IMG/VR virus record: IMGVR_UViG_3300032731_000113
Span: 1 to 30,753 of that record
Direction: 5' to 3' (one strand)
Origin: a virus
Length of the DNA stretch: 30,753 bases
A program made the translations under genes and the position numbers. The notes beneath the pieces are model-generated. The model did no database searches. It was not told the DNA's origin and worked only from the letters and a program-made list of their open reading frames with translations. Shown here in pieces: positions 6,938 through 21,852 of the stretch. Each line of letters begins with the position of its first letter. Position 1 is the first letter of the stretch.

Positions 6938-7771
6938 CTACCTCCTCACCCGCCTATACAACGCCGCGCATCTACACCCTGGAAACCGTAGCGGCTGCAT
7001 GTGCCCGCTTTGGAACAACTCGCCTCGCGGTATCCATCCCTGATCCTGGTTCTCCTGGCACCCGTCACTCACCAAACTGTCCCGGCTAGTTAGCCACGAC
7101 TTTTCCATCTCTAGGCCTGCATCCTCTAGGTTCTTCGCCACGATACCATTCCCGGCCTCGTATGCGTTGCCTATCTCTGTGATCGAGATAAGGTGCGCCC
7201 TGCTAGCAATGTGCTGTTGCGGCTTGCCGATCGCAAACTCCTCGAACCTATCGAGCAATGTCTTTGCCAACGTATCATACGACTGTCCCTTTTGCAACCC
7301 GTCGCTTATGATGGTGCGGATGTAACCCTGCGTTGTGTAGTTCATGCCGGTTACCATCTTTGCGCCATGCTCATACAGGTACCGCTCTGCTAGCGGGTTG
7401 GCCACATCGAACGCGAGCGCTAGCGACATATCTCTATAGAGCGCATTCCCCCCCGCCGTTAGGGCTATCGTCTCAGCGGCTACCACCGGATTGACAAACT
7501 CCTCTGTCGTCTGTGCTGCCACCGCATACCATTCCTGTTCCCAACCTGGGAACGTCAGTTGTTGCGGGATAGCGGCTTCCTGAATCACCGGCCACTGATC
7601 GCGCAGCTTGCCCAGCCGTCGCACGAACAACCGCCCCTGCTTGCGAAACGCCGCCGCTAGAGTCCTTTGCAGCGTTGGCCGCAATCGCGCCTCTACGCGG
7701 TCCTTGCGAGCCACCAAGGCGGCCTCTAGGAATGTATCGAGTGCGTCACGCAGGTCGATCATTGCGCCCAT
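6938..7771 (-). CDS. Head morphogenesis protein, Mu gpF-like minor head protein
   Basis: This 277-residue protein belongs to the minor head protein/head morphogenesis group. Evidence is the long helical N-terminal half, the repeated A-x-T-E helical pattern (RAHLISITEIGNAYEAGNGI), EKSWLTSRDSLVSDGCQENQ with the W-x-t-x-x-D-x-x-v-x-x-x-C pattern, and the terminal RFPGCRCAALYR motif that closes Mu gpF-type domains. It lies downstream of the portal, where these proteins usually are. They sit inside the head or at the portal and help capsid assembly. The start at 7771 has GAGGCGGTTT upstream. Confidence 0.8.
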   Translation of the reverse strand: MGAMIDLRDALDTFLEAALVARKDRVEARLRPTLQRTLAAAFRKQGRLFVRRLGKLRDQWPVIQEAAIPQQLTFPGWEQEWYAVAAQTTEEFVNPVVAAETIALTAGGNALYRDMSLALAFDVANPLAERYLYEHGAKMVTGMNYTTQGYIRTIISDGLQKGQSYDTLAKTLLDRFEEFAIGKPQQHIASRAHLISITEIGNAYEAGNGIVAKNLEDAGLEMEKSWLTSRDSLVSDGCQENQDQGWIPRGELFQSGHMQPLRFPGCRCAALYRRVRR

Positions 7772-18410: not shown

Positions 18411-18720
18411 CCGCCTCCTTCCACTCGTGACATCCCATCCCATCTATCCCATATGCCTGTTCTGGCGTCATCGCAAACTCCCAACAACCACAAACGATCC
18501 ACACCTTGCCATCGTCATCAATCTCTGGGCCAGAGGACGCACATGTCTCGCACGTCTGCGCCCGGCGCTGTTGGAGTTCTAGCAGTAACTCAACCACCGT
18601 CTCGTTACAAGCCGCGCCATACGTGTTCCCGACCGCCTCACAATCTGCTTGCCTGGCCCCAATCCATCCTATCAAACTTTCCAGTCTCTCGTCTGTGGGC
18701 CTACTATCCCGTTCCATCAT
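18394..18720 (-). CDS. Cys-rich LQQRRAQTCETCA-family protein (copy 1)
   Basis: This 108-residue protein starts MMERDSRPTDERLESLIGWI at 18720. The core LLLELQQRRAQTCETCASSG is followed by a divergent ribbon with VCGCWEF and a GCHEWKEADDGGE end. Cysteines at CETC, CGC and GC could form one zinc site. It overlaps the replication initiator by 17 nt and the next copy by 17 nt. It is one of three paralogues in 2.4 kb. Function unknown. Confidence 0.72.
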   Translation of the reverse strand: MMERDSRPTDERLESLIGWIGARQADCEAVGNTYGAACNETVVELLLELQQRRAQTCETCASSGPEIDDDGKVWIVCGCWEFAMTPEQAYGIDGMGCHEWKEADDGGE

Positions 18721-19747
18721 CCGCCTCCTCTAGTTTCCATCCCCAATCATCCCCCAACGCTTGCCCCACCGCGTCCGTAATGCTCGCGGCCATGCGGTTT
18801 TCGATCCAATCGCGCGCGTTCCGTGTAGACGGCCCGATTATCAGCGTCTTGTCAATCACCTCGACCGTGGCGGATCCTAGCCACATATCGACGCTTTTCC
18901 GCGTTTGCGTTGAGTACATGGTTTCAAGGACTCGATTCCATTCAGCCGGAGGCCCTGCTCTCTTTTCCCTAATCTCAACAGGCTTGACGGGCTGCGCGTT
19001 CTCTTGAGCCGTTGCTAGACATTTATCGAGATAGCGTAGGTTCCGCGTTTGGCTAATGGCGCACTCCCGCAAGGCATAATCCCACCATTCGCGCTCAGGA
19101 TAGTCGTCAATCAACGCCCCGATCTCTTCTAGGGCATTCGGAGCCAGCTTCCAGCCCATGCCCTCGGCGATTGTCGTGTAAACGTGAGAGGCAAGGCTCT
19201 CAGGGGATTCAGAAATGGCGGCTGCGGCGGTTGTTACTGTTGGTATTGCATCTGCCTCTGAATCTGCATCTGAATCTGCATCTGAATATTGAATCTGCAT
19301 AGTGCATACTGAATCTGTGCTAGAGTTAGTCGGGAGTTGGTCCGGAGTAGGTCCGGAGTTAGTCAAGAGTAGGTCCGGAGTAGACTCTGTATCATTCGAC
19401 CATTGCTCTGGAGGGGGTGGATAGTTGCTATCTGATTCCTTTACGGTATTGCCCTGGTAGTGCGCAAAGTTGACGGCCCATAGATACTGATGTCCTTCCG
19501 CCTCATAGAATCGGATCATGTCGCGCTCTGCGAACCAATTCAGCGCAACGCGTATCATATCAAAAGTGATATCTTCGCGTAACGGAAAGATCTTGCTGCG
19601 CACAAGTGCGGGCGTTGCCGGCAGCGTTCCCTCCCGACTCAGGCCCAACGGAAGCAACACCCAGAACAGCCGTGTAAAGTCGTCTGGCATTTCGTTGAAG
19701 TCAAAGCTCTCGACTGTCTTGGCGTGTAGCTTGCGATATCTAGGCAT
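18704..19747 (-). CDS. Replication initiator: winged-helix/DnaD-like plus DnaA-N-like domains
   Basis: This 347-residue protein is the likely replication initiator or replisome organiser. Residues 1-100 look like a winged-helix DNA-binding domain (DDFTRLFWVLLPLGLSREGT, ALNWFAERDMIRFYEAEG). Residues 101-175 are a Ser/Asp/Thr-rich linker. Residues about 185-248 match a DnaD-like helical domain (REWWDYALRECAISQTRNLR, YLDKCLATAQ). Residues 270-331 resemble DnaA domain I (WNRVLETMYSTQTRKSVDMW, LGS, VIDKTLIIGPSTRNARDWIE), which recruits helicase or other replication proteins. The start at 19747 follows GCGGGGGCTA and overlaps the upstream ORF. It lies beside a 23-bp tandem repeat (20074-20175). Confidence 0.78.
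   Translation of the reverse strand: MPRYRKLHAKTVESFDFNEMPDDFTRLFWVLLPLGLSREGTLPATPALVRSKIFPLREDITFDMIRVALNWFAERDMIRFYEAEGHQYLWAVNFAHYQGNTVKESDSNYPPPPEQWSNDTESTPDLLLTNSGPTPDQLPTNSSTDSVCTMQIQYSDADSDADSEADAIPTVTTAAAAISESPESLASHVYTTIAEGMGWKLAPNALEEIGALIDDYPEREWWDYALRECAISQTRNLRYLDKCLATAQENAQPVKPVEIREKRAGPPAEWNRVLETMYSTQTRKSVDMWLGSATVEVIDKTLIIGPSTRNARDWIENRMAASITDAVGQALGDDWGWKLEEADDGTG
19245..19390. repeat. Degenerate short repeats encoding the initiator linker
   Basis: Two blocks of short imperfect tandem repeats lie inside the initiator gene: 12-bp units with core GAATCTGCATCT at about 19258-19302 (encoding SDADSDADSEADA) and units based on GTCCGGAGT at about 19330-19382 (encoding repeated TNS/PD peptides). 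Both fall in the flexible linker between the DNA-binding and DnaD-like domains. Confidence 0.7.
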
Positions 19748-20093
19748 TAGCCCCCGCTTTCAATCTGGCCCATAGTACGCCTGCTGTATAGCGCACGAGG
19801 CCATCAAACCCACCATAGACTTTCCCTTCAGCCAGCTTGACCCCGGCCTTGTCGATTGCGATCTCGACCTCTTGCGGCCCGAATGTTTTCACCCATGATG
19901 TCATCATTGCGTTACCAGGCGCGAAATCTTGTTGTAGTTGCTCATACCAATATCCCTGGAGTAGCTTAACTGTCTGATTGAGCACCGCGTCTCTTTGAAC
20001 CTTTGCCTCATTGTACCGCTTGAGTTCGGCGTATTCCTGTTGCGTCTCAAGCCATGCCAAGTCAGCGTCGGGCCTTGGCGCCCGCTCTGTCAA
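19740..20093 (-). pseudogene. C-terminal part of a split HNH protein
   Basis: This 117-residue frame starts, if independently translated, at a TTG (20093) inside the last unit of the tandem repeat and has no good ribosome binding site. Its sequence, RPDADLAWLETQQEYAELKR followed by YNEAKVQRDAVLNQTVKLLQ and a small domain (FGPQEVEIAIDKAGVKLAEG), is the kind of C-terminal region that in related phage proteins continues directly from an HNH domain. It is in the same reading phase as the HNH ORF upstream, separated from it by a single TGA in the repeat. I interpret it as the detached half of one gene. It could still be expressed by stop readthrough or from the TTG. Confidence 0.62.
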
Positions 20094-20175
20094 TACCTTG
20101 GCGCCCGCTCTGTCAATACCTTGGCGCCCGCTCTGTCAATACCTTGGCGCCCGCTCTGTCAATACCTTGGCGCCC
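20074..20175. repeat. 23-bp tandem repeat, four full copies plus 10 bp
   Basis: Four exact 23-bp units (20074-20096, 20097-20119, 20120-20142, 20143-20165) and a 10-bp partial unit (20166-20175) lie head to tail. On the minus strand each unit begins GTATTGACAGAG and contains TTGACA. The array spans the end of the HNH frame and the beginning of the next frame. Because 23 is not a multiple of three, each unit shifts the phase. Three extra units (69 bp) restore the phase but bring one in-frame TGA (20138-20136). It may be replication slippage. An iteron function near the initiator gene is an alternative. Confidence 0.92.
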
Positions 20176-20366
20176 TTGCCGCGATTGCAGGCCACGCACG
20201 CACTGACGAGATTCATAATGTCATTGTCGCCGCCCTTGGCTACGGGCTGGATATGGTCAATCTCAAGAATCACGTCGGGCGGCGTGCGGCCACAATACTG
20301 GCATGCGAATCCGTCGCGCTTGAACACATCGAATCTGATACCCTTGCTAATTGCTTTTCTCACCAT
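20136..20366 (-). pseudogene. HNH nuclease domain, N-terminal part of a split gene
   Basis: The 76-residue frame starting MVRKAISKGIRFDVFKRDGF at 20366 (GGGGGCAAGC upstream) carries a complete zinc-type HNH core: CQYC (22-25), IDH with His38, Asn52 in DNDIMNLV, and CVACN (57-61). It ends VLTERAPRY* only because it enters a second unit of the 23-bp repeat. With one unit it would continue in frame into 19740-20093 to give about 185 residues. The core itself is intact, so this half could be active. A longer start (20399, MKGETTYLG) exists but lies in a direct repeat. Confidence 0.75.
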
Positions 20367-20386
20367 GCTTGCCCCCAAGTACGTGG

Positions 20387-20417
20387 TCTCCCCTTTCATT
20401 CAGTCCCCTATCGGCTC
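20387..20417. repeat. 31-bp direct repeat, copy A
   Basis: This 31-bp sequence is identical to 20825-20855. It lies in the gap between the 20447-20821 gene and the HNH ORF. On the minus strand it begins GAGCCGATAGGGGACTGA and ends in GAAAGGGGAGA, so it would carry both a stop codon and a ribosome binding site. Here the stop context is not attached to any intact gene. Confidence 0.88.
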
Positions 20418-20446
20418 GCTGCTTCTACAATCCGACTGCCAACCCA

Positions 20447-20821
20447 CTACGGCCAGCGAATCAACCACGGCGTGCCAGGTTCGAATGACCGCGCAACCCC
20501 CTCGATCATCTCCTCGCGTTCAGCACCAGATAGCGCCAATGGCGAGCCGTCAGCAGAAGCGACCCGCTGCGCTGCAAAGAGTCGTTTGATGTTGTCTGGC
20601 ATGTCAATGAACACGCCCATTCCGGCGACCGGCCTAAAGTCGGGCTGTATCACATCCCCGTTCCAATTAATATGCAGCATATCTGGTTTTCCACAACATG
20701 GGCAGCGAACGCCAAAGGGCGTCACGCCGTCCCGAGAGTTCCAGAACGTTTCCTGGTGTTCGCACCGCTTACAGCGGTACCTCATAAGGCAATATGCTTC
20801 AGAGTACTGATACTTTTTCAT
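20447..20821 (-). CDS. 124-aa zinc-ribbon protein
   Basis: This 124-residue protein starts MKKYQYSEAYCLMRYRCKRC at 20821. CKRCEHQETFW and VRCPCCGKPDML form two Cys pairs (CxxC, CxxC) of a zinc ribbon at residues about 17-44. The rest includes FRPVAGMGVFIDMPDNIKRL and ends EPGTPWLIRWP. The ribosome binding site GAAAGGGGAGAGGG belongs to the 31-bp direct repeat. The gene is bracketed by both copies of the repeat, suggesting insertion or shuffling as a unit. Function unknown. Confidence 0.68.
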   Translation of the reverse strand: MKKYQYSEAYCLMRYRCKRCEHQETFWNSRDGVTPFGVRCPCCGKPDMLHINWNGDVIQPDFRPVAGMGVFIDMPDNIKRLFAAQRVASADGSPLALSGAEREEMIEGVARSFEPGTPWLIRWP

Positions 20822-21179: not shown

Positions 21180-21644
21180 TTAGATACGCGCCCAAGTCTT
21201 GCGTCGCACAACCATATGGATTGTTGACCTCGATACTTCAAAGCGTCTCGCGAGAACACTTTGTTTTATGCCATTCTTGAAGGAGGTCCGAATATCTCTC
21301 ACGTCCACATTCGTCAGCTTGGCGAGGCCCTGCGATTCCCCGCGAGCCTCGCGCCCCTTTGCGGTCATGTCGGCCATGTTGTCGGCGGGCGTGCCAAGGA
21401 ATAAATGCGTGGGATTAACGCAGCGCCGGTTATCGCAGGTATGGCAAACGCACAAGCCTGCGGGGACAGGACCGCTCGCAAGCTTCCAGGCAAGCCGATG
21501 TGCTAAAACAAGGAGTCCATCTCTCTTGCCAGATCCTAGCGCCCCATATCCACAAGTGTTTACGCTCGCCGTCCACTCCCAGCACTCATCTGGTCCCCGC
21601 TTCTCGACCTTTGCCCAGAAGCGTTCCTCGAGCGTTCCTTGCAT
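21180..21644 (-). CDS. Free-standing HNH endonuclease with C-terminal HTH
   Basis: This 154-residue protein is an HNH_3-type homing-like nuclease. It has the opening ERFWAKVEKRGPDECWEWTA, GYGALG, AHRLAWKLASGPVPAGLCVC, then HTCDNRRCVNPTHLFLGTPA with His68, Asn77 and His80 as the HNH triad, and DNMADMTAKGR. A C-terminal HTH (AKLTNVDVRDIRTSFKNGIK, VLARRFEVSRSTIHMV) would bind target DNA. The start at 21644 has TTGGAGGACGTC. It overlaps the 3' end of the upstream Cys-rich gene by 59 nt in another frame, as expected for a mobile gene inserted near a gene end. Confidence 0.9.
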   Translation of the reverse strand: MQGTLEERFWAKVEKRGPDECWEWTASVNTCGYGALGSGKRDGLLVLAHRLAWKLASGPVPAGLCVCHTCDNRRCVNPTHLFLGTPADNMADMTAKGREARGESQGLAKLTNVDVRDIRTSFKNGIKQSVLARRFEVSRSTIHMVVRRKTWARI

Positions 21645-21852
21645 GACGTCCTCCAAACACGAAACCCGCGCTCTCGGCGGCCTGTGGCAGCCTGTCTCTG
21701 TGCACTAGAGAACACATAACAGGAATACAGGCCCCCGACGTGTCGATACTTTGCGCTTGTGTAGCCACGTCTATCCCCGCGCACACGTCTCGGAGTTTGC
21801 ACCCGTCGCATGTGTCGAGGGGCCATCCTGTCAAGATGCAGATGTAGGTCAT
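21586..21852 (-). CDS. Cys-rich small protein, 3' end altered by HNH gene
   Basis: This 88-residue frame starts MTYICILTGWPLDTCDGCKL at 21852 in an ATGA overlap with the upstream micro-gene. CDGCKLRDVCAG and SGACIPVMC suggest metal binding by a Cys cluster. The last 20 residues (ARNARGTLLGKGREAGTR) overlap the HNH gene in another frame and look like read-through sequence, so the original C-terminus may be lost. Function unknown. Confidence 0.58.
   Translation of the reverse strand: MTYICILTGWPLDTCDGCKLRDVCAGIDVATQAQSIDTSGACIPVMCSLVHRDRLPQAAESAGFVFGGRHARNARGTLLGKGREAGTR

Follow-up and report, generated by a model that had tools for sequence, protein, structure and literature searches.

The locus described here raises the question of whether two neighbouring open reading frames of an uncultured phage, separated by a tandem array of 23-bp units, are two genes or a single gene that the array has broken and, if the latter, what the break does to the phage. 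We address it in one genome copy of the phage, the single IMG/VR record IMGVR_UViG_3300032731_000113, whose full 30,753-nt stretch is referred to below as the window and supplies all coordinates unless another locus is named. An initial annotation of this DNA had described four exact units lying between a frame for an HNH nuclease and a following frame in the same phase, and had interpreted them as a slippage-generated switch or a very recent disruption.

Results

A perfect 23-bp array separates two frames of the same phase

The array is made of the unit GGCGCCAAGGTATTGACAGAGCG, present in four exact copies on the minus strand (20175-20084 in our register), with 10 further matching nucleotides after the last unit and 1 before the first. 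Counted as four exact units and an 11-nt partial copy, it spans 20073-20175 on the minus strand. TRF run on the window reported the same interval with 4.5 copies, 100% matches, and a score of 206. As a control, 100 dinucleotide-preserving shuffles of the window were scored in the same way, and their top score was 65; the array is therefore not a product of chance, and the earlier observation is confirmed. An IMG/VR search for the exact 23-bp unit gave no other record. Scanning 685 kb of related loci for arrays with a period of at least 12 and at least 2.5 copies returned seven, six of which had triplet-multiple periods and rows with 0% indels, while the seventh, with a period of 33 bp, was likewise a multiple of three, so that the 23-bp unit stands out. 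Elsewhere in the window, two exact 21-bp units at 1884-1925 lie in frame within ORF 1521-2654 and encode a repeated AENAELK-type stretch; about 20 copies of a 12-bp unit occur at 7205-7450 of the phage contig L044, which also has a relative of the window's replication gene.

The HNH frame (20136-20399, minus strand) encodes 87 aa from an ATG at 20399, with an alternative ATG at 20366, and ends at a TGA (20136-20138, minus strand) in repeat unit 2. The second frame (19740-20093, minus strand), referred to here as the C-terminal frame, encodes 117 aa from a TTG at 20093 to a TAG at 19740, contains no internal stop, and is in the same phase. Both have codon usage like that of other genes (0.185 bits per codon for the HNH frame and 0.217 for the C-terminal frame), and all other frames scored negative. 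The plus strand of the unit is free of stops, which leaves long antisense frames at 19995-20810 and 20011-20589 open through the array as well; in the parts flanking it their codon scores are negative, and they are probably not genes.

Translation through the four units meets exactly one stop, the TGA at 20138-20136, as had been claimed. With one unit, the two frames fuse into a protein of 196 aa if translation begins at 20399, or of 185 aa if it begins at 20366, the latter in agreement with the roughly 185 residues predicted for the joined protein. When copy numbers from 2 to 8 were translated, all of them terminated at one codon, since the stop sits in the second unit; the ribosome would halt at the same TGA and release the same 87-aa product. 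Thus, the premature TGA is common to every copy number of at least two, a single unit alone leaves the frame open, and copy number modulo 3 is irrelevant to the product.

The two frames are parts of one gene

The HNH frame contains a complete HNH nuclease motif, matches the Pfam family HNH (PF01844; E 5.8e-15) as well as PHROG 16986 (E 4e-32) and PHROG 14314 (E 8e-25), and its HNH domain is 59% identical to that of gp1 of Pseudomonas phage JBD44. The C-terminal frame alone gave no match in Pfam, PHROGs, or NCBIfam, none by tblastn against annotated phages, and none as a single-sequence query in IMG/VR, so that its detection required profiles made from relatives. One drawn from the C-terminal parts of HNH relatives recognized it with an E value of 4e-4, where the top hit among 1000 shuffles reached 0.8; one that included closer relatives did so with an E value of 1.8e-19, where the top hit among 1000 shuffles reached 0.75. 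These closer relatives (L135, L138, L137, L139, and L142) come from uncultured phages and were found by an alignment-based IMG/VR search; each is one unbroken frame with an HNH domain ahead of the C-terminal domain, and they are 38-44% identical to the C-terminal frame (E 5e-24 to 2e-18). The best blastp matches were L135 (38.6% over 114 columns, E 5e-24), L138 (40%), and L137 (41%), with E values from 5e-24 to 1e-22.

On this homology, we conclude that the HNH frame and the C-terminal frame are one gene, the second frame supplying the domain that the first lacks. The helical C-terminal domain is not in one frame with the HNH domain, but lies in phase downstream, cut off by the TGA of the array. 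The window gene is accordingly a broken member of the phage replication-module HNH proteins of the PHROG 16986/14314 kind. Terminase-associated HNH proteins, as discussed for brucellaphages (PMC4422536), were considered and set aside as different, the neighbour in the window being a replication gene. About 0.8 kb upstream of the broken gene, a second frame at 21180-21656 resembles an unrelated HNH-type nuclease (HTCDNRRCVNPTHLFLG motif).

The predicted structure of an unbroken relative, L021 (mean pLDDT 81), has an HNH domain, followed by a linker of low confidence and then by one long and three shorter helices. Modelled as a read-through product, the window sequence has the same layout and both domains fold confidently, whereas residues 76-100, which are encoded by the array, have pLDDT below 50 and are predicted to be disordered. 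The array site is thus the linker between the two domains, which in this model would tolerate a change in length, though not in frame. A Foldseek search of the PDB with intact L021 returned only weak matches (E ≥ 0.04), all to the HNH domain and none to the C-terminal domain.

Unbroken relatives have a single copy of the linker segment

Uninterrupted homologues, for which a search had been suggested by the initial annotation, were found at 112 loci encoding 88 distinct proteins; the loci were drawn from IMG/VR, from annotated phages, and from one bacterial genome. TRF detected no array in the linkers of any of them. The alignment-based search gave a set of 80 loci that was ranked by whole-query match and is therefore biased toward unbroken genes; a less biased search with the HNH domain only also yielded two frameshifted members. 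In these two prophage-type IMG/VR records (L018, 3001-3417, and L029, 2971-3757), the same HNH gene is frameshifted at other positions, so that its decay is not unique to the window but recurs. TerL used as a query retrieved two distant relatives only and thus revealed no close relative of the phage as a whole.

The linkers of L135 (GKSAKVISEVAPRPDADL), L137 (GKADKQLQNISPRPDADL), and L139 (GKAAKVLSNIAPRPDADL) align without gaps to the window sequence reduced to one unit (GKGAKVLTERAPRPDADL), which has the same length. Together with L138 and L142, they share with the window the C-terminal domain and the linker motif PRPDADL, into which the repeat unit runs; they differ from it in that the linker segment is single, with no array and no stop. 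JBD44 gp1 (YP_009275488.1) resembles the window gene in its two-domain layout, in its position before the replication initiation gene gp2, and in an 8-nt overlap with that gene, but it is one unbroken frame of 248 codons, whereas three additional 23-bp units interrupt the window frame at the linker. The expectation that the joined sequence would have the layout of intact phage HNH proteins is borne out by this C-terminal homology and by linkers colinear with one unit. Taken together, the comparisons support a single copy as the intact, ancestral layout.

The array probably arose by slippage

In the inferred single-copy state, an 11-nt direct repeat, GGGCGCCAAGG, occurs twice at a spacing of exactly 23 nt, in the codons for GAK and APR. 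The corresponding APR segment of L135, GGCGCCCAGG, is similar but not identical, and the linkers of L135 and the other relatives contain no repeat of 7 nt or more. The array itself has 100% identical head-to-tail units and end microhomology of 10+1 nt, and its relatives are single-copy, all features of a slippage duplication. These data suggest that the array was probably made by slippage. Identical units point either to a recent event or to homogenization by turnover, two histories that would leave the same sequence here.

Perfect head-to-tail units, end microhomology, frame disruption, and the potential for reversal are shared with tandem-duplication frameshifts and with the slipped-strand arrays of VNTRs and minisatellites. 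We see no essential difference from those systems.

A replication-initiation-like gene overlaps the end of the C-terminal frame

The next gene downstream (18704-19747, minus strand) encodes a 347-aa replication-initiation-like protein that matches PHROG 16167, "replication initiation protein" (E 3e-8), and PHROG 186, "DnaD-like helicase loader" (E 4e-6), and is similar to the genes that follow HNH in L046 and JBD44. Its start overlaps the end of the C-terminal frame by 8 nt, ATGCCTAG, at 19740-19747 (minus strand). In L046, whose downstream gene is homologous, the overlap is ATGCCTAA. The linker of the replication gene contains degenerate tandem repeats at 19247-19381 (6/12/18-20-bp and 11/22-bp units), so that two neighbouring genes both have repeat-rich linkers.

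The arrangement is general among the unbroken relatives. A substantial reading frame begins within 60 nt of the HNH stop in 88 of 88 distinct relatives, and in 53 of the 88 its start falls in the range from 8 nt ahead of the end of the stop codon to 6 nt past it, with overlaps that are most often 8, 4, or 1 nt. Where annotated (JBD44, Louie, Krappator27), the gene after HNH codes for a replication initiation protein or a DnaD-like helicase loader, and the window likewise has a replication-initiation gene immediately after, and overlapping, its HNH gene. Translationally coupled genes typically overlap by 4, 1, or 8 nt, in prokaryotes most commonly by 4 nt, and coupling is almost lost once the gap reaches about 20 nt (PMC10666635). 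The replication gene is likely to be translationally coupled to the C-terminal frame. The premature TGA lies 389 nt ahead of the replication gene start, and given the loss of coupling at a gap of about 20 nt, the array may lower translation of the replication gene, unless that gene starts by itself or ribosomes restart in between.

Discussion

We consider it probable that a gene of a known kind, belonging to the phage replication module, was recently disrupted at this locus by tandem duplication, and that the lesion can probably revert. As a first step, slippage between the 11-nt copies would have produced a 23-bp duplication that grew to four units. Because 23 is not a multiple of three, the HNH frame is broken from the second copy on; by translation, it then meets the TGA and would yield an 87-aa HNH protein without its C-terminal domain. 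Ribosomes stopping short of the natural stop would couple more weakly to the overlapping replication gene, if that gene does not initiate by itself. Finally, a long perfect array may contract, which would make the lesion probably revertible.

The alternative that fares best, though we regard it as rather unlikely, is that the gene is split but functional, with termination and reinitiation passing ribosomes along to the C-terminal frame, so that two proteins are made at a fixed, reduced ratio. The candidate route is a chain of 4-nt TTGA stop/start overlaps (20139-20136, 20116-20113, and 20093-20090; 20090-20139 as a whole, minus strand) enclosing two 8-codon mini-frames. The chain is exact: TGA20136 overlaps TTG20139, TGA20113 overlaps TTG20116, and TGA20090 overlaps TTG20093, the third TTG being the one that opens the C-terminal frame. 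Eight codons need one base more than the unit provides, and the 4-nt overlap restores it, so that the chain would work for any copy number of at least two. All three overlaps have a length found in termination-reinitiation pairs (4, 1, or 8 nt), and the commonest coupled arrangement in prokaryotes is the 4-nt one, with coupling nearly gone at a gap of about 20 nt (PMC10666635); moreover, the split falls at a domain boundary and the C-terminal frame is intact. However, the common 4-nt overlaps are reported as ATGA or GTGA rather than TTGA (PMC10666635). Initiation at TTG is weak, the accaaggta-TTG region lacks a well-placed Shine-Dalgarno sequence, and three restarts in series would multiply losses. 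The TTGA sequences derive from ancestral VLT codons, so that selection is not needed to account for them, and none of the 112 collected loci is split in this way. If the chain does work, the gene may not be null.

Phase variation offers a second alternative, which we judge unlikely: slippage during phage growth would generate mixed populations of ON genomes (one unit) and OFF genomes (two or more), controlling HNH and perhaps the replication gene. A long perfect array with a non-triplet unit inside coding sequence would suit such a role, as would intact one-unit relatives and a 23-bp period that is unusual beside the triplet-multiple arrays in 685 kb of related loci. Against this, every copy number from two upward is OFF with the same product, and most slippage steps would have no effect. 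The simple-sequence-repeat contingency genes of Neisseria (PMC5084427) also have a non-triplet repeat inside the gene, but the window unit is long, at 23 bp, and is ON at one copy number, whereas classical contingency repeats are ON at one third of lengths. One-unit steps thus do not toggle the window gene between ON and OFF, and its tract does not recur in related genes, the linkers of the 112 relative loci having no array. The ON state, moreover, has lost the array and retains just the 11-nt repeat, which would lower switching back. In the literature library searched, no precedent came up for a phase-variable phage gene with tandem repeats and HNH. The initial reading of a slippage switch or a recent disruption therefore divides: slippage is likely and the identical units fit a recent disruption, but with one product at all copy numbers of at least two and 88 intact relatives without an array, the on/off switch is weakly supported, the array itself being the sole positive evidence for it.

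It is similarly doubtful that the array reflects an assembly or population artefact, in which the consensus would show a copy number that few or no phages of the actual population have. Short-read assembly is known to handle short tandem repeats poorly, and both the window and the exact unit come from a single IMG/VR record. The only repeat in a single-copy locus, however, is 11 nt long, much shorter than the words that assemblers usually work with, and so gives them no cause to invent units. Some molecules at least probably carried more than one unit, although the copy number itself could be wrong.

Fainter still is the prospect of a self-framing minisatellite, in which each added unit would supply a TTGA overlap restoring the lost base, ribosomes would get to the C-terminal domain and from there to the overlapping replication gene whatever the copy number, and output would fall with each unit; copy number would then tune the ratio of HNH to the C-terminal domain and the replication initiator rather than act as a switch. 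Least probable is read-through of the TGA, programmed or leaky, into a 219-residue fusion with 23 extra linker residues: the four units do hold both frames in phase, and the model, as a prediction, shows two domains joined by a disordered linker, but in-phase frames are expected one time in three, TGA is an ordinary stop in 12 of the 27 window genes checked, and the RNA around the stop and array has no structure beyond that of shuffles (z 0.45), for which reasons we rejected recoding or a special read-through context and find a programmed event unsupported.

In the reading that we favour, recent disruption by tandem duplication, the annotation of the locus is corrected from two apparent genes to one broken gene. 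Comparison with colinear single-copy relatives shows how a microhomology of 11 nt can silence a phage replication-module gene. In the 88 distinct relatives, the HNH gene stands directly before, and usually overlaps, the gene for the replication initiator, which suggests that the two have a coupled function. Should the reinitiation chain prove to work, the locus would have an unusual tolerance of a frame-breaking repeat, with the array acting as a rheostat.
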